A stretch of 46,686 nucleotides of DNA from Clostridia bacterium (GTDB lineage Bacteria; Bacillota; Clostridia; UBA1381), in contig JAFRDB010000147.1 of NCBI GenBank assembly GCA_017404065.1, forward strand, positions 1 through 46,686. The letters are read 5' to 3'. A program made the translations under genes and the position numbers. The notes under the pieces were generated by a model. That model saw only the letters and a list, made by a program, of their open reading frames with translations, was not told where the DNA came from and searched no databases. Position 1 is the stretch's first letter. Every line of letters starts with the position of its first letter. Positions 22,017-32,145 of the stretch are shown here, piece after piece.

Positions 22017-22049
22017 GCGTTATCCGAACACTCGGATAACGCTTTTTTT
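22017..22049 (+). terminator. Intrinsic terminator after tRNA-Arg
   Basis: Perfect 11-base arms GCGTTATCCGA and TCGGATAACGC around an ACAC loop are followed by seven T residues. Confidence 0.95.
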
Positions 22050-22583
22050 ACTTTATAAGAAATTGCTCGTTTAGCGGGGTTCGGGGCGGCAGAGCCAGTT
22101 TGCTGCGCGTTCAGCTAAAGCCATAGCAATGCTTATGGGAGGTTTGGGGAAGTGTGTCTCGCGAATGCGCATTTGCCTTTTATGTGCAGCGGAAATAGCC
22201 ACGGCATAATCGGTTCACGCTATAGTACTAAAAGCAATTCTGTTATTTGTTAACATTATAGCAGCTGTACATAAAAGCCATCTAAGCAATGAGCGAGACA
22301 CACTTCCCCAAGCCCTTGAGCATCTCAGACAGCCGCGAACGCCAAAGCGCAAAGCGCATCAAACCGGCGCGGTACCAGTTGCTTGCATATCAGTTGTATT
22401 GAGCATAGGGGGTTTCAGGGGGAAACGCAGTTTCCCCCTGAAACTACTACTCTTTTCCCCCCAAGATTGGGGGGTCAGGGGGGTTGACCCTCCCCGACAA
22501 ACTGAAATTTTATCGTGCAATTTCGGCAGCGCTCATCAAGCTGCCGCTCTGCACCCCACCTAACGAGCAATTTCTCATAAAGT
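22050..22583. mobile_element. 534-bp non-coding MITE-like element with terminal inverted repeats
   Basis: The ends are 22-base inverted repeats (22050-22071 and 22562-22583) matching at 21 of 22 positions around the core AGAAATTGCTCGTT. Inside, 19-base perfect arms at 22144-22162 and 22293-22311 (core GGAAGTGTGTCTCGC) fold back, and a further pair (22177-22190 / 22264-22277, 13 of 14) nests within. A CCCCCCAAGATTGGGGGG hairpin lies near 22456. No reading frame of note is present. The right end (22488-22583) recurs inverted at 37915-38008. It is inserted directly after the tRNA terminator. No transposase is present, so any mobility would have to be supplied in trans. Confidence 0.75.
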
Positions 22584-22586
22584 AAA

Positions 22587-22629
22587 AAAACGAGGCTGTA
22601 AAAAACTGAGTTTTTTACAGCCTCGTTTT
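22587..22629. terminator. Bidirectional terminator of the isomerase operon
   Basis: Perfect 20-base arms (22587-22606 and 22610-22629; core CGAGGCTGTAAAAAAC) enclose a TGA loop, with A-run and T-run on the two sides. It sits 11 bases beyond the stop codon of the minus-strand isomerase gene. Confidence 0.9.
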
Positions 22630-22640
22630 AATATGGAGAT

Positions 22641-23987
22641 TTATATAATAGTAATATGCAAAATATCGCAAAGCGCCTTTATTACCTCGGTATTATCGCC
22701 GTAGGATATGATGTAATGCTGGCACATCACGTTCTGTGCAAAGTACTCTACGTCGTCAAGCTTTATCTCAAGCCCGGGCAGCTGCGGTGCGGGCTGTGTC
22801 CAGCCTGCCTCCTCCCACTTGCGCGGTGTTATAGCGTCGCCGGTCACCATGTGCATATAATACTTGCCGTCGATGTTGCAAAGACGGCACATCGTGACCT
22901 TTCCGGTCTTTAGCTTTGATACGTTCAGTATTCCCTCGCTCAGCTCTCCGAATGCTGCGGGCATTACGGTAACGTCACCGTCCACTACCTCCGCCGGTAC
23001 ATAGTCCGGTACTCCCGCAAGCACACGGTCGGTGAAGAATTCATAGAATTCCAGATAGAACGCGCACTGACCGGTGAGGTATTTGACTATCAGCTGAGTA
23101 ATTGTTCCGAGTGAATCGTTTTCGGGAACCGTACAAAGTCCCGCTTCGTCCGCAAGCAGCATGAATATCGGCGCGGGCGGGAACCCGAGCAGCTTTTTCA
23201 TGCCGTCAACGTCCTTAAGTGATATCGCGTCATAGCCGCGCTCGTCACATATCTCCTTTACCGCAAGGTAATAGCCTGCCGCCTTCTTCATGCTTTCGGG
23301 ATCAGCGGGCTTTAAGAAGTTCCATTTGCTCATAGCGCTGTCTATGACCGCCTGCTTCTCTGCATCCGATATCTTTTGATACCTCTGCTCTATCTCAAGC
23401 ATTTCAAAGGTCTCTATCTCCGCGCCGATGTCGCGCTTTAACGAGCCGCCGTCATAGAGTGTACCGTACAGGTTCATGTCACGATAACCCGCCATGCCGC
23501 TCTTTGCGCTGCGAAGCCTTGCCGCCGCGGATGCAGCCTTTGCAAAGTTATATACCGTCTTTGAATTTGAAGGCAGACCTATTATGTCATATACATACTT
23601 AAACGTATACCCAAGATCATAGAAGGTTTTTCTCAGCGCAGTCGTTCCTGCCTGGTCGGCAGTTGTCACAAGCCTGTCGCCCTCTGTCCAGCCGCACAAG
23701 CCCCATAATACCATGGGCTTATGTCTGTACTGCTCGGTTATCTTCACTACCGCATGAGTGGGTATCCAGCCGGCTATGCATACTATAAGGCAGTCAAACT
23801 CCTGTCCCTTCAGCGTGTCAAGCGCGTTTTTAATATCCTTCTCCTCGTAATCGTCCGTTACGGGATATACCGATAAAAGCTCAAGCCCTTCTTTTTTAAG
23901 GCTTTCCTCTGCCTTTTGGCATTTATTTATAATCAGCTCCTTTGGTGTGTTTACTTCACCAAATCCTACAAATGCAGCTTTAATCAT
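22641..23987 (-). CDS. L-fucose/L-arabinose isomerase-like protein
   Basis: This 448-aa protein belongs to the FucI/AraA-related isomerases, which interconvert aldoses and ketoses with a metal ion. Supporting signs are the N-terminal Rossmann-like half (MIKAAFVGFGEVNT; DCLIVCIAGWIPTHAVV), a central PENDSLGTITQ stretch with the acidic metal-ligand candidate, and a C-terminal CQHYIISYGD with the conserved His. It is shorter than classical FucI (about 590 aa) and closer to uncharacterised short relatives. It is last in a six-gene operon and overlaps the kinase gene by 4 bases (ATGA). Its substrate is unknown; the adjacent kinase implies a free aldose converted to a ketose. Confidence 0.85.
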   Translation of the reverse strand: MIKAAFVGFGEVNTPKELIINKCQKAEESLKKEGLELLSVYPVTDDYEEKDIKNALDTLKGQEFDCLIVCIAGWIPTHAVVKITEQYRHKPMVLWGLCGWTEGDRLVTTADQAGTTALRKTFYDLGYTFKYVYDIIGLPSNSKTVYNFAKAASAAARLRSAKSGMAGYRDMNLYGTLYDGGSLKRDIGAEIETFEMLEIEQRYQKISDAEKQAVIDSAMSKWNFLKPADPESMKKAAGYYLAVKEICDERGYDAISLKDVDGMKKLLGFPPAPIFMLLADEAGLCTVPENDSLGTITQLIVKYLTGQCAFYLEFYEFFTDRVLAGVPDYVPAEVVDGDVTVMPAAFGELSEGILNVSKLKTGKVTMCRLCNIDGKYYMHMVTGDAITPRKWEEAGWTQPAPQLPGLEIKLDDVEYFAQNVMCQHYIISYGDNTEVIKALCDILHITII

Positions 23988-25387
23988 GTGTTTTTATCCT
24001 CCAGATCACAAAATCTTTTATAACACTGTGAATAGTCCGTGCCATCCGGCTCGTATGCTTTCGCGACAGCGACCGCCTTCTTTGCCGTTTCGCTGACGCT
24101 CTCAAACAAGCCTATGCCCTTTCCGGCAAGTATCGCGGAGCCGAGGCAGGCAGTTTCATTATTATTTTTAAGCGTCACTATCCTTTTGCCGGTAACATCC
24201 GCCTTTATCCGGCACCAGAGCGGACTCGACGCGCCTCCGCCCATTGAGCGTATCTCCTTGCAATCTACGCCGAGATATTCAAGATTGCGCCGCAGCATAC
24301 ATGCTATCGATTCAAGTATCGCTCTTATAGCGTGTGCGCGTGTATGCTCAAGCGTAAGCCCCAAGAACGCGCCGCGCGCGTCCGGGTTATACTTCGGCAT
24401 TGTCGAGCCGCACAGGTAGGGGAGAAATGTCAGCCCCTCACTGCCCGGCGCGACCGCCGAGGCGAGCTCGTCGAGCTCTTGAAAGGAGAGAGATTCACAA
24501 AATTGTGTCTTAAACCATTTTAATGCCATACCCGCCGTAGGCGTCCATGACAGGAGGCAATAGCCGCCGTCATAGCATTTATGGCAGGGTATTTTGCTGT
24601 CCGCCGCATAAGGCGGTGCAACGTCGGTCGGGACGTATATAACCATTGTCGTGCCGGTCATTTCGCTTATAATGCCTTTTTCCGTCACGCCTGCTCCTAT
24701 AGCTCCCGCTATCTGATCTATCGCACCGGTAACAACGGCGGTACCGTTATAGTATCCTACCGTTTCGCCGCTGTTTTTAAGCTCCGGCAGTACGGAGCTG
24801 TCGATGCCGATATATTGAAGCATCTCGTCCCACCATTTTTCAGTATGTATGTTGAAATATATAGTCGAGGACTGCAGTGTCTTCTCTGTAACGAATCTTC
24901 CGGTAAGCTTCCATATCAGCCAGTCCTCAAGCAAGAATATCCTGCGTGTTTTGGCGAATACTTCCGGTTCGTTTTCCTTTACCCACAGTAGCTTGCACGC
25001 GGGCCATGTGGCAGTGATCTCCGGCTGACCGGTGATCTCATATACGCGCCTTTCGCCAAAGCTTTTTGTAATGCTTTCCGCCTGCTTCGCGGCACGGTTA
25101 TCGAGCCATACGATAGCGTTATAAAGCGGGGCGCCGTCCTCATCGGTAAAGATGATCGTTTCGCACTGCGTATCTATCGCAAGCGCTGCGATCTCTATTC
25201 CTTCGCTGACCTCTTTAAAAGCATCGAGGAAAAGCTCCCAATAGCTTTCGGCAGGGAACTCAACGCGGTCACCGGCGGCAATAAGGGTATAATCCCTGGT
25301 CACGCTTCTTACCGGCTCTGACTTCTCATTAAATACAGCCATTTTAAGGGATGTTGTTCCGACATCCGCTCCAAGTAAATATTTCAT
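23984..25387 (-). CDS. FGGY-family carbohydrate kinase (xylulokinase-like)
   Basis: This 467-aa enzyme has the two-lobed ASKHA fold of sugar kinases. The N-terminal phosphate loop is GADVGTTSLKMAVF, the catalytic Asp lies in VVTGAIDQIAGAIGAG, and the adenosine motif is MGGGASSPLWCRIKADVTGK. It would phosphorylate a ketose (or polyol) with ATP in the cytoplasm. It is closest in feel to xylulokinases, but the family cannot be subdivided by eye. It is translationally coupled to the isomerase, suggesting the sequence aldose to ketose to ketose phosphate. It follows the DeoR regulator by 14 bases. Confidence 0.92.
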   Translation of the reverse strand: MKYLLGADVGTTSLKMAVFNEKSEPVRSVTRDYTLIAAGDRVEFPAESYWELFLDAFKEVSEGIEIAALAIDTQCETIIFTDEDGAPLYNAIVWLDNRAAKQAESITKSFGERRVYEITGQPEITATWPACKLLWVKENEPEVFAKTRRIFLLEDWLIWKLTGRFVTEKTLQSSTIYFNIHTEKWWDEMLQYIGIDSSVLPELKNSGETVGYYNGTAVVTGAIDQIAGAIGAGVTEKGIISEMTGTTMVIYVPTDVAPPYAADSKIPCHKCYDGGYCLLSWTPTAGMALKWFKTQFCESLSFQELDELASAVAPGSEGLTFLPYLCGSTMPKYNPDARGAFLGLTLEHTRAHAIRAILESIACMLRRNLEYLGVDCKEIRSMGGGASSPLWCRIKADVTGKRIVTLKNNNETACLGSAILAGKGIGLFESVSETAKKAVAVAKAYEPDGTDYSQCYKRFCDLEDKNT

Positions 25388-25401
25388 AGTTTATCTCACA
25401 T

Positions 25402-26166
25402 TCATACCGTTATTATATTAGAATTATACTCCTTTAATTCCGCAATATCATCATCTTTAGAGCTGTCGGAATTTGTTATTATATAATCGGCATCCGTTAT
25501 AGGCGCGATATGCTTGAACGCTGTTCTGCCGAGCTTGCTGCTGTCGGCGGCAACTATACGCGTAGCCGAATTTAAAAGCATAAGCCTGTCGATCTCAGCC
25601 TCGCGGTCATAGTATGTTGTAAACCCGTTCTCGGCGGTTATTCCGTCAACGGAAAGTATGAGCTTATCTGCGTGATAACCCATTAGCTGTGCGTTGGCAT
25701 TATCACCGTATACAAACTGGTATTTCGGATTTATCGAGCCGCCCAAAAGCACGACATTGAAGCTCGGATTGTCAGCAGCCTCAAGCGCAATAGCGATCGA
25801 ATTGGTGACGATGCTGAGATTCAGGCTCTGCGGTATTTTCCTAAATATTGACAGGGTAGTGGTGCCGGAATTGAGCATAACGGTATCATTATCCTCTATC
25901 ATCTGCGCCACTCTTGCCGCTATCTTATCCTTATTCTCACGGTTTGCCGCGAGGCGCTGCTGCATATCCATGTTATAGTAGGTCTTGTACGAGCTTACCG
26001 CGCCGCCATGAACGCGCGAGATAAGACCCTTGGCTTCAAGATCGGCAAGGTCGGTTCTCACAGATACCTCCGATATACCGAAAAGCTCTGCAAGCTCAGT
26101 CACCTTTACCTTGCCCCTGCTGTTTACCAGCTCCGCTATTTTCTGCCGTCTTTCAAACAGCTCCAT
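25402..26166 (-). CDS. DeoR-family transcriptional regulator
   Basis: This 254-aa protein has an N-terminal winged helix-turn-helix (about 1-55, RRQKIAELVNSRGKVKVTELAELFGIS followed by SEVSVRTDLADLE, quoted in parts) and a C-terminal sugar-phosphate sensor domain (VMLNSGTTTLSIFRK, VVLLGGS, SVDGI, DSSKLGRTAF). DeoR proteins usually repress until a phosphorylated pathway intermediate binds. The ATG at 26166 is preferred over a TTG at 26175 because AGGAG lies 9 bases before it. Encoded inside the operon, it probably acts at the TTTCGTTTG sites at 28334 and 30076. Confidence 0.94.
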   Translation of the reverse strand: MELFERRQKIAELVNSRGKVKVTELAELFGISEVSVRTDLADLEAKGLISRVHGGAVSSYKTYYNMDMQQRLAANRENKDKIAARVAQMIEDNDTVMLNSGTTTLSIFRKIPQSLNLSIVTNSIAIALEAADNPSFNVVLLGGSINPKYQFVYGDNANAQLMGYHADKLILSVDGITAENGFTTYYDREAEIDRLMLLNSATRIVAADSSKLGRTAFKHIAPITDADYIITNSDSSKDDDIAELKEYNSNIITV

Positions 26167-26234
26167 AACTAACAACTCCTCAAGCCTTTATTATTTCTTA
26201 TATTGTATCCTCAAAAGGCTTAAAAGACAAGTAA

Positions 26235-26855
26235 TTATCTCTTTAACTGCAGATCATAATGCAGGTCATAAGCCTTCTCCTCGTCGGTGAACTTATGTCT
26301 TGTATCTATTACCTCACCATTGTTCCACTTTCTGTCGCCAACATCCTCTGTTGTTCCCATAACCGTAACGTTCACCTGTCTGTGGCGTGCAAGAACGTGA
26401 TCCCAGTCGATGAAATATACATGAGCGAACTTGCCGCCGTCAACGATGCCGTCCTTTATCGTCATTGTTTCGGATCTGCCGAAGAAGCAGCTTCTTAAAT
26501 GACCGTCTGTGTTCATGCTCGAATAATCGCCCGGCTCATCAACATATCTGCCGTACTGAGCGTGGATGGGACCGGGGTGACGGTACTGATGCTCCTCGGC
26601 AAAATCAGGTATCATCTTGCGCATGATGTCCAAAAGATCGTGCTGTAAGAACTCAAGATCGAACGAATCGATATCGTGCGAGCACTCCTGAACCATTACC
26701 GAGCAGGTTGTGTGATGTGACACTATGCTTACAGTGCCGTTCTTAACTCCGGATGCCTCTACTATTTCATTTATCTCCTTTGAGATGTCGTGAAACGTCG
26801 GTATCCAACCTCTTGACTGAAGCTCCAATTCCTTCTGATAAACCTTAAACTCCAT
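26235..26855 (-). CDS. UPF0047/YjbQ-family protein
   Basis: This 206-aa protein carries the family core: THDISKEI-like start, SHHTTCSVMVQE, LDIMRKMIPDF and a C-terminal WDHVLARHRQVNVTVMGT. Family members are about 140 aa; this one has an inserted middle (HPGPIHAQYGRYVDEP region) and a tail of about 25 residues. The family is annotated as secondary thiamine-phosphate synthase on the basis of weak activity in E. coli YjbQ; the physiological role is unsettled. Here it is the third gene of a sugar operon, one base after the SIS gene, with AGGAGGAAATTAAA before its ATG, so a role in sugar-phosphate handling is more likely than thiamine synthesis. That is inference. Confidence 0.85.
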   Translation of the reverse strand: MEFKVYQKELELQSRGWIPTFHDISKEINEIVEASGVKNGTVSIVSHHTTCSVMVQECSHDIDSFDLEFLQHDLLDIMRKMIPDFAEEHQYRHPGPIHAQYGRYVDEPGDYSSMNTDGHLRSCFFGRSETMTIKDGIVDGGKFAHVYFIDWDHVLARHRQVNVTVMGTTEDVGDRKWNNGEVIDTRHKFTDEEKAYDLHYDLQLKR

Positions 26856-26856
26856 T

Positions 26857-27474
26857 TTAATTTCCTCCTGTAGTTAGTTTTTTATTATTAAGCCTTTCGC
26901 CTACCGCGCCACCGGGGTGGACGATGGCGAACTGCTCGTTTTTATAGTCCGTTTCCTCCATAAGCGCTGCCTGAAGCGCATGGAATATTACCGCAAGCAC
27001 GGTCGATGAGGTCGTGCCCTGGCAGTTGTATTTGTCCGTTTCGCGGTTCACAAACATTTTAAGTACCGCATCCGCTCCGGCGGCAAGCGGTGATGTGAGG
27101 TTTTCCGTGACCGTGATAACGTTAACGCCCTTCTTTTTACAGATATCGAGTATCGGTATAAGCTCGCCTGTTTTACCGCCGCGCGAGGCAAAGAGCATCA
27201 CATCGCCCTTTTCTAAAAAGCCTGTCGCGCCGTGTACGGCCTCGGCGGGGGAGATGAACCGCGCCGGACGGTCTATGCAGCACATAAGATGTGCAAAATG
27301 CCGGCATAAGATCCCGCTGTGACCGCAGCCGGAGGCGGCGATCTTCGGAGCGTTCTTAAGTAGCTCCACAGCCTTGCCGAACTCTGCCTCGTCAAAATAT
27401 TCAAGCAGCTTTGCAATACATTCGCTTTCTATTATAAATGCATTTTTTGCGTATTCGATCGATTGTTTTTTCAT
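26857..27474 (-). CDS. SIS-domain sugar-phosphate isomerase, KdsD-like without CBS domains
   Basis: This 205-aa protein is a single SIS domain. The phosphate-binding loop (SGCGHSGILCRHFAH), PAEAVHGATGF, SRGGKTGELI and the C-terminal HPGGAVGERL match the arabinose-5-phosphate isomerase (KdsD/KpsF) pattern, but the paired CBS domains of that family are missing. It probably interconverts a ketose phosphate and its aldose phosphate. The start at 27474 is chosen over one at 27555 because GGGAGATCATT precedes it and the family begins there. It is second in the operon. Confidence 0.87.
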   Translation of the reverse strand: MKKQSIEYAKNAFIIESECIAKLLEYFDEAEFGKAVELLKNAPKIAASGCGHSGILCRHFAHLMCCIDRPARFISPAEAVHGATGFLEKGDVMLFASRGGKTGELIPILDICKKKGVNVITVTENLTSPLAAGADAVLKMFVNRETDKYNCQGTTSSTVLAVIFHALQAALMEETDYKNEQFAIVHPGGAVGERLNNKKLTTGGN

Positions 27475-27624
27475 AATGATCTCCCATTCCGCCACCTTGA
27501 GGCGGCACAAACAGCCACGTGGAAAAGAAGCAAGCAGAACGTATTTTTGCAACAACGAGGCTATACACAGATATGCGAGTTGGCGTAAAAATGCGTTATG
27601 CGCCGCTTATTTTTCGCGTGGACC
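27475..27624 (-). other. 150-bp spacer inside the sugar operon
   Basis: This gap between the TIM-like and SIS genes holds no reading frame in context. An imperfect inverted repeat pairs CCACGTGGAAAAG (near 27515) with TTTTTCGCGTGG (near 27610). It could be an RNA stem that changes expression between the first gene and the rest, or a degraded small repeat. No promoter matching consensus was seen. Confidence 0.35.
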
Positions 27625-28323
27625 TCAATGTAGTTCATCCCATGCCTTACGCAGATTATATAGCATTTCCTCTACCATCTCATAAGGTCTGTCGGATTTC
27701 ATTATACCGCTGGTCGTACCCGTTGCCTGTGCGCCGAGCTTTATGGTGTTATATACATCCTGTCCGTTTGAGATGCCCGCGCCCTGCAATACCATTATAT
27801 CCGGATTTATTTCATGTACGCGCTTTATCGTCTCTGTCACATAGTTCGCGTCACTTGTCTGACCTGTGCCTATAAGCTCTGTCGGCTCTGCAACCAGAAG
27901 ATTAGGTGACATTTTGGCTAAGGCGCACAGCTCCTCGACTGTATCCGCGCAAACGATAGTGGCAAGCCCTACCTCATCTGCGCGCTTTATCGTCTTTTCG
28001 ACAACGTCAAGCGTAAGCTTCTTCTCGGCATGGTTGAGCATAACGCCCTTCGCGCCCGCCGCCTTGACTGCTTCGGGAAGCACCGAGCCGAGACCTCTGC
28101 CCGGCGTGAGATAGTCCATGTGCTGGGCAAAAACGAGGATGCGCTCGGTGTTATTTGCAAGCAGCGAAATATCGGTATACTGGGGTGTTACGATAACATC
28201 AAGATCGTATTTCATCGCCGTCTTGTCTATGACCTTGGCAAGTTTAAGCATAGCGTCTCCGTAAAGAAATGCCTTCGGGCCGATCTCAAAAAACGGCGGT
28301 TTGATTTTAAAGTCCTTATACAT
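27625..28323 (-). CDS. Triosephosphate isomerase-like protein, short archaeal-type
   Basis: This 232-aa (beta/alpha)8 protein resembles the short archaeal triosephosphate isomerases. A Lys near the N-terminus (EIGPKAFLYG), the catalytic His in VMLNHAEKK, the catalytic Glu in VAEPTELIGTG and the phosphate loop QGAGISNGQDV are all kept. Relatives in sugar operons isomerise tetrulose phosphates as well as triose phosphates (for example in erythritol and threitol catabolism). The ATG at 28323 is chosen over 28383 because AAAGGAA lies before it and the fold begins there. It is the first gene of the operon, under a consensus promoter. Confidence 0.88.
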   Translation of the reverse strand: MYKDFKIKPPFFEIGPKAFLYGDAMLKLAKVIDKTAMKYDLDVIVTPQYTDISLLANNTERILVFAQHMDYLTPGRGLGSVLPEAVKAAGAKGVMLNHAEKKLTLDVVEKTIKRADEVGLATIVCADTVEELCALAKMSPNLLVAEPTELIGTGQTSDANYVTETIKRVHEINPDIMVLQGAGISNGQDVYNTIKLGAQATGTTSGIMKSDRPYEMVEEMLYNLRKAWDELH

Positions 28324-28333
28324 AAACAAATTC

Positions 28334-28450
28334 CTTTCGTTTGCTTTTGAAAATATTATATACCACTTTCTTTTATTTGTCAATACTTTATTTTTTGTTT
28401 GTCAATACTTTATTTTTTCTCTTGACATATTAATAAAATATTGTTATAAT
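28334..28450. promoter_or_regulatory. Divergent control region R1 with candidate DeoR operators
   Basis: Minus strand: TTGACA (28378-28383), 17 bases, TATAAT (28355-28360), driving the TIM-like operon. Plus strand: TTGACA (28422-28427), 17 bases, TATAAT (28445-28450), driving the GGDEF gene. The box CTTTCGTTTGCTTTTG (28334-28349) lies just downstream of the minus -10, and a second CTTTC box begins 32 bases later, between the minus -10 and -35. TTTCGTTT is a recognised half-site style for DeoR-family repressors. A 21-base direct repeat (28376-28396 and 28398-28418; core TTTGTCAATACTTTATTTT) follows. Confidence 0.8.
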
Positions 28451-28533
28451 GTTTTTATTAAGAATATAAGGATTTGTGAAATTCTCTGTTTGGTAAGCTT
28501 CGGTTTGTTTTGTTCATAAAAAGGGATATACAA

Positions 28534-30039
28534 ATGGATAAAAATATTAATACCGTAAACAAATACGGCGATTTTATTGTAAACAACAGAAAAAGAGTAA
28601 ATTACTATTTAAACATGGTTTTGTGGGTATTCGTTGCAACAGGACCGGCTTTATATGCCGGAGTCGCAGCGGGGATATTCCATAGCGTTACGTACAGCAC
28701 CTGTATCTGGATCACAGTGGCGATTATAGCGTTATCTGCCATACACCTTCTGCTCAGGAAGAAATTCCCGGGTTCTTTGATCAACAGTATATTTGCGATC
28801 ACGGCTTTGGAGCTGCTGCTTGTTTATATGTCATTTTCTCATATCAGAATTTACATTACATGGTTTCTGGTGCCGATGCTGAGTCTGCTTTATTGCGATA
28901 AGCGTATCTACTATTACGCTTCGGCGCTCAATTATGTGCTTATGTTTATCACAACGTGGATGGTTGCGCCCTATTACGCAGAGATAGGACTGAATTACGA
29001 TACCCCGTTTGTTTATTTTATAGACACAATAAGCGGCCTCACGATCGAAACAATAATAATGTTCTCGTCCGGACTGATAATCGTAAGTCTGACAACACAC
29101 TACTTTAAAGAATTGTTCAATCAATACCGTGTCATAAACGAACACGAAGCGACCTTGAAGGAGAAGATGAGTATTCTCTATTCTATGGCGGAGATATATG
29201 ATAATGTAAATCTTCTGGACTTTACAGACAGTACCGAGACCTCGCTCAGAAGTGAAAAGCAGGAGAAGCATAAAATAGATATGAAAAAACAGACGCATAC
29301 GCTTATGGTCCAGAGGCTGAAAGAAACTGTCGCTGCCGATCAGCTTGAAGAGTTTCTTGCGTTTACAAATATCAAAACCGTGCGGACAAGGCTGTCACAG
29401 AGGAAGATCATAAGTGCCGATTTTCTCGATTCCGTGTCCGGCTGGTTCCGTGCGCAATACATAACCGTTGACTCCACGCTTGACGGCATCCCGAATATCG
29501 TGATATATGTTACGAGAAACATTAACGAGGAAAAGAAGCGGGAGGAACATCTGGTAGAAATATCAAGGACCGATGAAATGACAGGACTTTATAACCGCAG
29601 ATGCTATGAGGAGGATCTCGCAGGATACAGAAGCAGCGGTCTTGATGATGGTTTTGTTCTGTTCTCCATTGATGTGAACGGCTTAAAGGTCGTAAACGAT
29701 ACAAAAGGTCACGCCGCGGGAGATGAGCTTATCAAGGGAGCGGCGGAATGTATTGTTTCCTTGTTTAAAGGGGCGGGAAAGGTCTACAGAGTCGGCGGAG
29801 ACGAGTTTATGGTTATTGCTCATTTGAGCGAACCCGAGGAGATGCGCCGTAAATTAAAGGATATGTCAGCCGAATGGAAAGGAGTATATATAGACAGGTT
29901 ATCGATGTCGGTCGGCTTTGCTGCGCTGAGGGATAATCCTAAAGCGACAATAGATGACCTTGAGCATTTGTCTGACGCGGATATGTATGCGGAAAAGGAT
30001 AGGTATTATAAAGAAAACGGCATAGAAAGACGACGGTAA
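28534..30039 (+). CDS. Membrane-bound diguanylate cyclase (GGDEF)
   Basis: This 501-aa protein has about six N-terminal membrane helices (about 20-185), a linker with a PAS-like stretch (about 235-330) and a C-terminal GGDEF domain with an intact GGDEF signature (421-425) in YRVGGDEFMVIA. RTDEMTGLYNRRCY marks the start of the domain. No RxxD inhibitory site is visible five residues before the signature. It should condense two GTP to c-di-GMP. The ATG at 28534 (after AAAAGGGATA) is chosen over an upstream TTG. The gene lies between two copies of the sugar-regulon control region, so it is probably induced with the sugar genes. Confidence 0.93.
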   Translation: MDKNINTVNKYGDFIVNNRKRVNYYLNMVLWVFVATGPALYAGVAAGIFHSVTYSTCIWITVAIIALSAIHLLLRKKFPGSLINSIFAITALELLLVYMSFSHIRIYITWFLVPMLSLLYCDKRIYYYASALNYVLMFITTWMVAPYYAEIGLNYDTPFVYFIDTISGLTIETIIMFSSGLIIVSLTTHYFKELFNQYRVINEHEATLKEKMSILYSMAEIYDNVNLLDFTDSTETSLRSEKQEKHKIDMKKQTHTLMVQRLKETVAADQLEEFLAFTNIKTVRTRLSQRKIISADFLDSVSGWFRAQYITVDSTLDGIPNIVIYVTRNINEEKKREEHLVEISRTDEMTGLYNRRCYEEDLAGYRSSGLDDGFVLFSIDVNGLKVVNDTKGHAAGDELIKGAAECIVSLFKGAGKVYRVGGDEFMVIAHLSEPEEMRRKLKDMSAEWKGVYIDRLSMSVGFAALRDNPKATIDDLEHLSDADMYAEKDRYYKENGIERRR

Positions 30040-30057
30040 GAAAACCTATCCGGACAC

Positions 30058-30090
30058 AAAAGCAAACAACAAGAGCTTTCGTTTGCTTTT
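30058..30090. terminator. Palindrome after the GGDEF gene, possible terminator
   Basis: Perfect 10-base arms AAAAGCAAAC (30058-30067) and GTTTGCTTTT (30081-30090) enclose 13 bases. It follows the GGDEF stop by 18 bases and could terminate that transcript. Its right arm is also part of the candidate operator, so the left arm may instead extend the operator into a palindrome. Confidence 0.55.
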
Positions 30091-30168
30091 GTAAATGTTA
30101 TACAGCGCTTTCGATTGTTTGTCAACACTTTATTTTCTCTTGACAAGAGAAAATATATGTGCTATAAT
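30076..30168 (+). promoter_or_regulatory. Control region R2 of the transaldolase operon, copy of R1
   Basis: Positions 30076-30136 match 28334-28394 at 52 of 61 positions without gaps. The operator box CTTTCGTTTGCTTTTG (30076-30091) and the second CTTTC box 32 bases later are kept. The plus promoter is TTGACA (30140-30145), 17 bases, TATAAT (30163-30168). The inherited minus-strand pair, TTGACA (30120-30125) and TATAAC (30097-30102), also survives and would fire antisense into the GGDEF gene. Confidence 0.8.
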
Positions 30169-30201
30169 AACTAAAATAAAAATGAAAGGAATTGTTGCGC
30201 T

Positions 30202-30882
30202 ATGAAATATCTTATAGACAGCGGTAATATCAAAGCTATCGAACACATATCGGAGTTTTATCCGATAGAGGGAGTAACGACAAATCCGACTCTTGTTTCA
30301 AAGGAAAAGACGGATTTTCTTCCGCTTATCAAAAAAATACGCTCCATAATAGGCGAGGATGCGGCGCTCCATGTTCAGACAACGGCAAAGACTGCGGAGG
30401 ACATCCTGGAAGAAGCAAGAGGACTGAAAAAAGCAGTTGGCGGTCAGTTTTATGTGAAGATACCCATCAATGAAGAGGGTCTTAAAGCGGCGTCAATGAT
30501 AAAAGCGGAGGGTATAGGCGTAACCATGACCGCGATATTCACCTCACAGCAGGCACTCATAGCGGCGCGTGCCGGCGCGGATTTTGTAGCTCCATACGTA
30601 AACAGACTTGACAATATAAATGCGGACGGAGTAGGGACAGTTGCGGAGATAGCGGAGCTGTTTGATATCTATTCGCTTGACTGCAAGGTTCTTGCGGCAA
30701 GCTTTAAGAACGTAAAGCAAATTTCGGAGACTGCGCTTGCGGGCGCACATTGCGCGACGATATCACCGGAGCTGTTCAGGCAAGCGATCTCTCATCCCAT
30801 GACCGATAACGCGATAGAAGGGTTTGAGCGTGACTGGAAATCGGTATATGGTGAAAAGGGAGTAGGCGATTTTCTCCTTTAA
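30202..30882 (+). CDS. Transaldolase-like fructose-6-phosphate aldolase (FSA/TalC type)
   Basis: This 226-aa class I aldolase matches the short FSA/TalC group. GVTTNPTLVSKE near the N-terminus, the Schiff-base Lys (about 86, in FYVKIPI), GVTMTAIFTSQQA and PYVNRLDN are present. Such enzymes cleave or form ketoses using dihydroxyacetone or transfer a three-carbon unit. ATGAAAGGAATTG places a ribosome site before the ATG. It is transcribed from R2 and followed immediately by the isomerase/epimerase gene. The actual substrate is unknown; the regulon context suggests it cleaves a phosphorylated ketose made by the opposite operon. Confidence 0.9.
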   Translation: MKYLIDSGNIKAIEHISEFYPIEGVTTNPTLVSKEKTDFLPLIKKIRSIIGEDAALHVQTTAKTAEDILEEARGLKKAVGGQFYVKIPINEEGLKAASMIKAEGIGVTMTAIFTSQQALIAARAGADFVAPYVNRLDNINADGVGTVAEIAELFDIYSLDCKVLAASFKNVKQISETALAGAHCATISPELFRQAISHPMTDNAIEGFERDWKSVYGEKGVGDFLL

Positions 30883-31740
30883 ATGAGAATAGGCATAGAA
30901 TTCAACATCTTTAATAGCGGCTACTCTCGGTACGGCGATAAGAAATACATAAAGCTGAAAGAGCACGGGTTCTCTTGTGTTGATTTCAACATGGCAAATA
31001 CCGATACGGCGCTCTATACATCCCCGGAATCGGATAAGCTTTTGCTTCGTGAAAGATCGTTAGCCGATGAAGCCGGCATTGAAATATACCAGGCTCACGG
31101 CCCGTGGAGGTCTCCCCCGAGAGACGTAACGTCCGAGGATCGGGCGGAGCGGATGGATAAAATGAAAAGATCGATCCGTGCAGCGTCGCTGCTCGGCTGT
31201 AAAAACTGGGTGATCCATCCCCTGATGCCGTGTGGGGCAGATGATATGCTCACGGGTAACGAGAAGGGAACTTGGGATATAAACCTCCGGTTTATGAAGG
31301 AGCTGCTTGTCACTGCCAAGGAATACGGCGTTACGATCTGCCTTGAAAATGTGCCGATGGCAAAGTTTTCTATGGCAAAACCGGCTGCGATACTGGCTCT
31401 TGTCAATGAGATCGGTGATGAGAGCTTCAGGATCTGTCTTGATACCGGCCATGTGGCAGTGTTTGATGATCTAACCTTATCTGATGAGGTGAGGCGTCTT
31501 GGTGATAAAATAAAGGTCCTGCATATCCATGATAACAAATGCGGCAAGGATCTGCACCTGATGCCTTATTTTGGTATAATAGATTGGAAAGCGTTTGCGC
31601 GCGCTCTTTATGATATCGGCTTTGACGGCGTATTCTCCCTTGAAACGTCCGTGCCCGCCAACCTGCCGGATGCGCTTTTTGAAAAAAGCAGCATAATGCT
31701 ATATGAGATTGCGGATGAGATCGTAAACGGCAGGAGGTAA
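30883..31740 (+). CDS. Sugar isomerase/epimerase, AP-endonuclease-2-like TIM barrel
   Basis: This 285-aa protein has the fold of xylose-isomerase-like/AP endonuclease family 2 proteins. Metal-ligand candidates are the Glu in ICLENVP, the Asp and His in CLDTGHVAVF, the HIHDN motif and the late Glu in FSLETSVP. Members epimerise or isomerise sugars, inositols and keto acids. It begins directly after the transaldolase stop (TAA then ATG) with no clear ribosome site of its own, so translation is likely coupled. It is the last gene before a repeat block. Confidence 0.87.
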   Translation: MRIGIEFNIFNSGYSRYGDKKYIKLKEHGFSCVDFNMANTDTALYTSPESDKLLLRERSLADEAGIEIYQAHGPWRSPPRDVTSEDRAERMDKMKRSIRAASLLGCKNWVIHPLMPCGADDMLTGNEKGTWDINLRFMKELLVTAKEYGVTICLENVPMAKFSMAKPAAILALVNEIGDESFRICLDTGHVAVFDDLTLSDEVRRLGDKIKVLHIHDNKCGKDLHLMPYFGIIDWKAFARALYDIGFDGVFSLETSVPANLPDALFEKSSIMLYEIADEIVNGRR

Positions 31741-32145
31741 TGGCTGCGGTGGTAGCCCCCAACCCCAACCCGCCCTGCGGGCACCCTGCCCCAAGGCAGG
31801 GACAGCGGAGCAGCGCCGGGAATTTGTGGTAAGGACACGAGTCCCTACCCTGGGGTAGGGGTGGCACGCGACAGCGTGACGGGGTTGGGGTTAACGTCAC
31901 TAGCGAACGAGACAAATCAGTGGTTTTAGTTATAATCTATCGCTGCTGAAAATCCCAACTCAAGTAAGCAAGGCTACGGTGGAGCCCCCAATCCGTCACG
32001 GCTCCTTTCGTCGCCGCGCCACCTTGCCCCGGGGGCAAGGACAGCGGAGCTTCACCGATAACTTGTGGTAAGGACACTAGTCCCTGCCCTGGGGCAGGGG
32101 TGGCACGCGACAGCGTGACGGGGTTGGGGGACGGCGAGCGGTAAC
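31741..32145. repeat. Tandem hairpin-repeat block left of the DUF559 gene
   Basis: Two modules of about 170-190 bp follow one another. Each has a CCCCCAA start, a core such as CCCCAAGGCAGGGACAGCGG, an inverted GGTAGGGGTGGCACGCGACA part and a GGGGTTGGGG end. Between them is a diverged form of the TTATAATCTATCGCTG segment seen at 38240 and 46600. No gene is visible. The first 25 bases (31741-31765) recur exactly at 32569-32593, on the other side of the DUF559 gene. Confidence 0.8.

Follow-up and report, generated by a model that had tools for sequence, protein, structure and literature searches.

Tetritol catabolism, with EryC, EryH (TpiA2) and EryI (RpiB) in Brucella and the LerI/DerI pair, is the closest described system to the locus analysed in this study. 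Carbons are numbered here from the phosphate-bearing carbon (P-1, P-2 and so on). The TIM homologues EryH and LerI move the carbonyl of erythrulose phosphate from P-1 to P-2, and the RpiB proteins EryI and DerI move it from P-2 to P-3 (PMC5992420, PMC10733421). In this study, we analysed a 46,686-nucleotide stretch of DNA from a Clostridia bacterium (contig JAFRDB010000147.1; hereafter the window), in which nine genes at 22641-31740 are predicted to form one sugar regulon. They include genes for a TIM-like protein, a long protein of the UPF0047/YjbQ family and a sugar-phosphate isomerase of the SIS fold. To our knowledge, UPF0047/YjbQ is a widespread family with solved structures and no accepted physiological role. 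We tentatively propose that this is a DeoR-controlled catabolic regulon in which TIM, UPF0047 and SIS would walk the carbonyl along a ketose-1-phosphate until cleavage by an enzyme of the fructose-6-phosphate aldolase type (FSA).

As in tetritol catabolism, a TIM homologue and then a second isomerase would move the carbonyl, and an epimerase may assist, as EryC may. Unlike tetritol catabolism, the window has UPF0047 and SIS, a predicted aldose isomerase, FSA and an FGGY kinase that would act on the ketose. No RpiB-type second isomerase was found among the nine open reading frames (ORFs) by profile search, and the window TIM belongs to the archaeal-type subfamily PRK04302, unlike the tetritol TIM homologues. 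The ribulose monophosphate enzyme HxlB, considered together with an allose-type 3-epimerase (Rpe/AlsE), shares the single-domain SIS fold. HxlB and Rpe adjoin TIM-UPF0047 in three loci (L134-L136) and UPF0047 on enterococcal plasmids. However, the window has no HxlA, and its SIS resembles KpsF/GutQ more than HxlB. Its FSA has the residues and length of the E. coli FSA (FsaA/TalC) and differs by its place in a sugar regulon with predicted carbonyl-moving isomerases. The window UPF0047 shares the fold and the HTT...E and N-D-H motifs of YjbQ, which has a secondary thiamine-phosphate synthase activity. In contrast to YjbQ, it is longer, has its own signature (C51, D61, D150-D152, R157, R159) and is encoded among genes for sugar enzymes rather than among thiamine genes. 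The initial annotation had recognised no known pathway in this gene set, and we likewise found no published one in the literature searched, which mostly left out subscription journals. The same search, made for UPF0047/YjbQ with sugar genes, returned nothing on this set and only the E. coli pdxB rescue discussed below. We regard the system as a previously undescribed form of phosphosugar isomerase pathway whose likely central enzyme comes from an orphan family.

Linkage and co-variation of the TIM-UPF0047 pair

A scan of 84,980 genomes yielded 406 UPF0047 relatives, and the best 80 loci were taken, mostly from rumen and gut Clostridia. Neighbours were counted in the 50 loci in which UPF0047 was flanked on each side by 4 kb or more. 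Within 4 kb, SIS was found in 48 loci, TIM in 43, FSA in 24, an FGGY kinase in 22, DeoR in 19 and the isomerase of the window (ISO) in 18. Genes of the AP_endonuc_2 and GGDEF families, both present in the window, were not among the neighbours counted. Matches to the AP_endonuc_2 protein (EPI) in other loci reached 24-29% at most, and it was rejected as a core member since it is not conserved in relatives. A 33% GGDEF match lies near the module in one locus (L142).

Linkage was also examined in samples of genomes. In an even sample of 196 genomes of the class, the carriers of a TIM relative (at least 40% identity) and the carriers of the long UPF0047 were the identical 29 genomes, some with the genes on different contigs. 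SIS was present in 26 of these 29 (E 1e-30); the remaining three comprise G309, which has a SIS match at a contig end, and two genomes of the class-II-aldolase type (G357 and G407). The UPF0047 subfamily was found in 12 of 399 Bacillota genomes, and TIM is adjacent to it in all 11 other genomes with strong UPF0047 matches. TIM also adjoins UPF0047 in Shinella and in plasmids of E. faecium, E. raffinosus and L. paracasei. These results show that the conserved unit is TIM plus the long UPF0047 (with SIS in many loci), not nine genes, and that UPF0047 is the most constant partner of TIM. The initial annotation had suggested a neighbourhood check; UPF0047, SIS and TIM do recur together in many genomes, but the full nine-gene unit does not. 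UPF0047 had rightly been listed in the set but given no role. Rumen and gut Clostridia commonly carry the module, which also occurs on enterococcal and lactobacillar plasmids; no phage carriage was found. Identities between the window and its nearest relative were 83% for ISO, 93% for TIM, 98% for UPF0047, 64% for the FGGY kinase (KIN), 69% for SIS and 67% for FSA. This mosaic suggests that parts have been exchanged.

The pair is near-inseparable in the sampled genomes, although sugars enter by varied routes (FGGY kinase; fructose-, galactitol- and sorbitol-type phosphotransferase systems, PTS) and the exit enzyme may be FSA, Rpe or a class II aldolase. Variant A, the window type, has ISO, KIN, SIS and FSA. 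Variant B has an AraA-like isomerase, another FGGY kinase, an amidohydrolase_2 protein and a paralogous TIM/UPF0047 pair (L146, L155-L160). In L146, L155, L158, L160 and similar rumen loci, this second pair (43-47% identity) often lies beside a window-type UPF0047 and SIS. Variant C combines a fructose PTS with TIM, UPF0047, HxlB, Rpe and DeoR (L134-L135, with L136 a short contig that lacks the PTS), and the SIS of L134 scores 205 bits as HxlB, above the cut-off of 160. Variant D has a galactitol PTS, a class II aldolase, TIM and UPF0047 (L139, L140, L202, L176, L178). Variant E has a sorbitol PTS, a DRL (DXR-like) oxidoreductase, a class II aldolase, TIM and UPF0047 (L137, L138, L141, L151), and 2-C-methylerythritol, apiitol or another branched polyol may be its substrate. 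Such a substrate does not apply to the window, which has no DRL gene. Variant F, on E. faecium and L. paracasei plasmids, has a galactitol PTS, UPF0047, Rpe and HxlB, and no TIM. TIM was sought in an un-annotated gap of the E. faecium operon, and a transposase-like ORF was found there instead, where IS66 is annotated. The two E. faecium plasmid operons examined (L175, L204) stop at an IS66 element, and about 150 Enterococcus plasmid records match. The Shinella locus contains an SDR, an AP_endonuc_2-like TIM-barrel protein, TIM, UPF0047, an FGGY kinase, a dihydroxyacetone-type kinase and an ABC transporter, with no SIS.

SIS and the type of TIM vary together with these entries and exits. A KpsF-type SIS or HxlB occurs in none of 12 class-II-aldolase loci and in 27 of 35 other TIM loci (Fisher p 2e-6, an optimistic value because several loci are related). 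One of the aldolase loci, L137, carries a GmhA-like gene. SIS occurs in loci fed by an FGGY kinase or a fructose PTS, with a TIM of the GPK/GTK type. The catalytic residues K19, H100 and E148 are kept in all linked TIMs. In the window TIM, the NxK motif is altered to GPK, which replaces the substrate-binding Asn by Gly. All 12 class-II-aldolase-linked TIMs have NPK, whereas all others have GPK, GTK or GVK, or in one case SVK. The TIM tree divides into aldolase-linked and other loci, and the UPF0047 tree is parallel, with two clades. In the long UPF0047, the residues H48, T49, C51, E57, D73, N115, D117, H119, D150, D152, R157 and R159 are invariant. Its predicted fold matched UPF0047 structures only in a fold search. 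The TIGR00149 score of the window protein, 61.7, misses the cut-off of 67.8, so it represents a distinct subfamily.

The proposed carbonyl walk and competing explanations

We infer the substrate, the C1 phosphorylation and all of the isomerisation steps from gene content, and this applies most to the step given to UPF0047. The substrate would be a free aldose, most likely a hexose; the full gene set fits a hexose best, and a shorter chain may also serve. The initial annotation had named a pentose, a tetrose or a branched sugar as possible substrates. ISO would convert the aldose to a 2-ketose, and KIN would then phosphorylate C1. TIM would shift the carbonyl from P-1 to P-2, UPF0047 would take it on to P-3, and SIS would bring it to P-4. 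A hexulose-1-phosphate would in this way become a 2-ulose-6-phosphate when the chain is read from the other end, a compound of the class that FSA accepts. Since this aldolase shows specificity at C3, a 3-epimerase would be needed to set this carbon; EPI may do so here, and Rpe in variants C and F. FSA would cut fructose 6-phosphate or an isomer into dihydroxyacetone and glyceraldehyde 3-phosphate, and DhaK would take up the dihydroxyacetone. DhaK is encoded elsewhere in the genome, and 11 of 14 control genomes lack it. This order agrees with that of the initial annotation, in which an aldose would be turned into a ketose, phosphorylated, isomerised as the phosphate and then split by aldol cleavage.

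SIS enzymes of the KpsF and HxlB types act at P-3/P-4, on arabinose 5-phosphate/ribulose 5-phosphate and 3-hexulose-6-phosphate/fructose 6-phosphate, respectively. The P-2/P-3 step is then the unassigned one between TIM and SIS, and UPF0047 is the only unassigned inseparable gene; we therefore assigned this putative step to UPF0047. The way in which SIS and the type of TIM change with the enzymes of entry and exit appears to fit the direction of the walk. In variants D and E, TIM and UPF0047 would work in reverse, converting a ketopentose-5-phosphate to a ketopentose-1-phosphate for a dihydroxyacetone phosphate (DHAP) aldolase, and SIS would not be needed. Each step would destroy one stereocentre and make another, so unusual sugars could enter glycolysis by this route. 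More tentatively still, UPF0047 may be the missing middle isomerase of a modular walk. The trio would convert ketose-1-phosphates of any suitable kind to ketose-6-phosphates, with their stereocentres overwritten, and would run in reverse before DHAP aldolases, as a general, undescribed rare-sugar device of gut Bacillota, lactobacilli, enterococci and some alphaproteobacteria. If true, the walk would extend the short Brucella tetrose relay to longer sugars and show how bacteria funnel stereochemically unusual sugars into glycolysis. The walk would also give the orphan UPF0047 family a function that can be assayed.

Several observations weigh against the carbonyl walk. EPI is not conserved in relatives, as described above. 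TIM stands without a nearby UPF0047 in L161, L163 and L171, and those genomes carry UPF0047 elsewhere. KIN is nearest to xylulokinase by score. Xylulokinase phosphorylates C5, so C1 phosphorylation is only assumed here, and C1 and terminal phosphorylation cannot be told apart from sequence. Variant F, without TIM, requires another starting carbonyl, or UPF0047 acting as an epimerase. With UPF0047 as an epimerase, variant F would be simpler. TIM and/or SIS (HxlB) would form a 3-ulose phosphate, UPF0047 would invert the carbon beside the carbonyl, and the same isomerase would return it, with a net C4 (or C3) epimerisation of the ketose phosphate. This uses the same 3-ulose intermediates as the walk and accounts for the loci with only TIM, UPF0047 and an aldolase, as well as the TIM-less enterococcal and lactobacillar operons with UPF0047, Rpe and HxlB. 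However, it leaves unexplained the presence of TIM and SIS together in kinase-fed loci and the parallel with the LerI/DerI relay, and we consider it unlikely. We regard a tetrose or pentose substrate as rather improbable. TIM and UPF0047 would then mimic LerI and DerI (tetrulose-1-phosphate to erythrose 4-phosphate) or convert a pentulose-1-phosphate to ribulose or xylulose 5-phosphate, SIS would make arabinose 5-phosphate, and FSA would be synthetic or transaldolase-like. The Shinella locus, with its two kinases and no SIS, and the nearness of the window SIS to the KpsF/GutQ arabinose 5-phosphate isomerases are consistent with this. In contrast, SIS in 48 and FSA in 24 of the 50 window-type loci speak against it, four carbons would leave SIS without a substrate, and the FSA residues are those of an aldolase, not a transaldolase.

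Instead of a carbon-skeleton isomerase, UPF0047 could be a hydrolase, either a lactonase or a phosphatase of sugar phosphates, or an enzyme of metabolite repair, next to a kinase, isomerase and FSA route of the usual kind. Its structures have no assigned reaction. In E. coli, a pdxB mutant is rescued by overexpression of YjbQ through an unknown reaction, and HisB and Php also rescue it (PMC7954711). This rescue may point to such a role and is compatible with a C4-phosphosugar activity of YjbQ, for which it is not specific. However, inseparability from TIM across PTS, ABC and FGGY entries and several exits, with two parallel clades, would be unexpected for a hydrolase, and this role seems just as improbable as the shorter substrate. 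We consider it very improbable that the locus is a variant of a characterised pathway (L-fucose/D-arabinose, sulfoquinovose sulfo-TAL or erythritol). ISO lies in the AraA/FucI/SftI superfamily, FSA is distantly like SF-TAL and the TIM-like relay resembles EryH/LerI. Nevertheless, FSA scores 113 bits to SF-TAL structures and 167 as FSA-type, ISO reaches 51 bits to SftI (NF048012) against a cut-off of 700, and no sulfolactaldehyde-handling enzyme is encoded among the nine ORFs. The FucI-FucK-FucA route for L-fucose/D-arabinose was rejected because KIN scores 111 bits as L-fuculokinase (TIGR02628, cut-off 471) and no FucA-type aldolase is encoded among the nine ORFs; for the erythritol route, RpiB is likewise missing among them. 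No family cut-off was reached for rhamnose or xylose kinases or for arabinose 5-phosphate isomerase.

Locus layout, promoters and neighbouring elements

The nine ORFs were confirmed, and their family names were upheld by Pfam and NCBIfam profile scores (Table 1). The fold assignments of the initial annotation held, that of ISO by its predicted fold, and the interval contains no transporter, as had been noted. The two arms had been described as facing each other, with a GGDEF gene between them; the GGDEF gene does lie between them, but the arms diverge, the minus arm running leftward and the plus arm rightward.

Table 1. Positions of genes, predicted regulatory sites and repeats in the window
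Feature	Position	Strand	Details
ISO, AraA/FucI-fold aldose-ketose isomerase	22641..23987	-	448 aa; predicted conversion of free aldose to 2-ketose
KIN, FGGY carbohydrate kinase	23984..25387	-	467 aa; predicted ketose phosphorylation; 4-nt overlap with ISO
DeoR-family repressor, AgaR-like	25402..26175	-	DeoRC 159 bits, above Pfam cut-off; AgaR 193.5 bits (cut-off 260)
Long UPF0047/YjbQ protein	26235..26855	-	206 aa; PF01894 82.6 bits (cut-off 27); proposed sugar-phosphate isomerase/epimerase
SIS, single-domain KpsF/GutQ/HxlB-like sugar-phosphate isomerase	26857..27480	-	207 aa; Pfam SIS 63.7 bits, above cut-off
TIM-like isomerase, archaeal type	27625..28329	-	Pfam TIM 79.7 bits; PRK04302 198.8 bits (cut-off 132)
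Operator copy 1, CTTTCGTTTGCTTTTG	28334..28349	+	at predicted TIM transcript start
Minus-arm (TIM) promoter, TTGACA-17-TATAAT	28355..28383	-	12/12 sigma-70 match
Two TTTGTCAATACTTTATTTT copies, divergent promoter	28376..28416	+	repeat
GGDEF-gene promoter, TTGACA-17-TATAAT	28422..28450	+	12/12 sigma-70 match
GGDEF gene, membrane-type diguanylate cyclase by sequence	28510..30039	+	GGDEF 81.3 bits, above Pfam cut-off
Promoter/operator copy 2	30076..30168	+	CTTTCGTTTGCTTTTG at 30076, TTTGTCAACACTTTATTTT at 30118, FSA promoter TTGACA-17-TATAAT at 30140-30168 (12/12 sigma-70 match)
FSA, fructose-6-phosphate aldolase type	30202..30882	+	TAL_FSA 174.2 bits, above Pfam cut-off
EPI, AP_endonuc_2 TIM-barrel, ketose 3-epimerase-like	30883..31740	+	AP_endonuc_2 128 bits; psicose 3-epimerase 61.9 bits (cut-off 300)
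MITE-like intergenic element	22043..22590		548 bp
GC-rich direct repeat	31795..31890 and 32034..32129		96 bp, 90%

ISO was the sole weak family assignment of the nine, with 25 bits to Fucose_iso_C (cut-off 29.3); SftI was its best NCBIfam model. A direct sequence search of the PDB gave no match for ISO, and a fold search was used instead. Its AlphaFold model, built with 13 homologues, had a mean predicted local distance difference test score of 86.9 and matched arabinose isomerases (AraA) with a template modelling score of 0.84 and fucose/D-arabinose isomerases with about 0.80. These matches suggest that ISO belongs to the aldose-ketose isomerases of that superfamily and that none of its characterised relatives is close. 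KIN scored 175.6 and 98 bits with the Pfam FGGY models, above their cut-offs, and 300.6 bits as XylB, where the cut-off of 380 was not reached. The window SIS missed all curated cut-offs (GutQ 124.9 of 481, KpsF 114.6 of 203.7 and HxlB, TIGR03127, 52.2 of 160 bits), and its closest PDB entry was 3fxa. FSA passed NF009299 (221.6 bits, cut-off 214), missed TIGR00875 (220 of 246) and scored 155 bits to 1l6w. Alignment to 1l6w indicates that the predicted FSA-type active site is kept, with the Schiff-base Lys and with Gln and Tyr replacing the Glu and Phe of transaldolases. A separate canonical TIM is encoded elsewhere in the genome, so the TIM-like protein of the regulon is spare. Its start was placed at ATG 28329 because the alternative TTG 28383 is part of the -35 box of the minus-strand promoter, which is a perfect match.

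The TIM/GGDEF and GGDEF/FSA intergenic regions represent two copies of the same promoter region. Exact CTTTCGTTTGCTTTTG occurs only at 28334 and 30076 in the entire genome of 3.06 Mb; at two mismatches, six further sites were found, compared with five matches for the reversed control. TTTGTCAAYACTTTATTTT occurs three times in the window (28376, 28398 and 30118) against 0.05 expected. We also examined 16 related loci where deoR lies on the minus strand and a module gene, usually tim, diverges from it, and counted the TTTCGTTT core between the two genes. The core occurred 21 times in 3,656 bp against 0.37 expected (about 58-fold), in 13 of the 16 loci. TTTCRTTT boxes are targets of AgaR-type repressors, and predicted operators of this type were found at the regulon promoters. 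The duplicated promoter/operator and the TTTCGTTT enrichment in relatives point to a single predicted DeoR regulon of the minus arm, GGDEF gene and plus arm, in line with the single regulon proposed initially. No catabolite-responsive element was found in the region by a strict pattern. The GGDEF gene shares the promoter/operator of the regulon, which may link a second messenger to the catabolic switch; in most relatives this gene is not conserved.

Other elements lie near the module. The MITE-like (miniature inverted-repeat transposable element) sequence has 50-nt inverted ends (86% complementary) and lies downstream of ISO and a tRNA-Arg, and the direct repeat lies between the EPI gene and a DUF559 gene. 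In L025, L032, L064 and L150, a protein of 310-325 aa with no Pfam match is encoded near the module; the L025 copy is faintly like glucosamine-6-phosphate deaminase (25 bits). A protein of 500 aa that is faintly similar to neutral ceramidase (PF04734, 16 bits) is encoded beside ISO, FSA and KIN in clusters that include L002, L006, L013, L152, L153 and L167. Its occasional neighbours are a PgtP/UhpC-like MFS transporter, a CapA-like protein and an M20 protein, and it may act on an acylated precursor and so set the sugar free.

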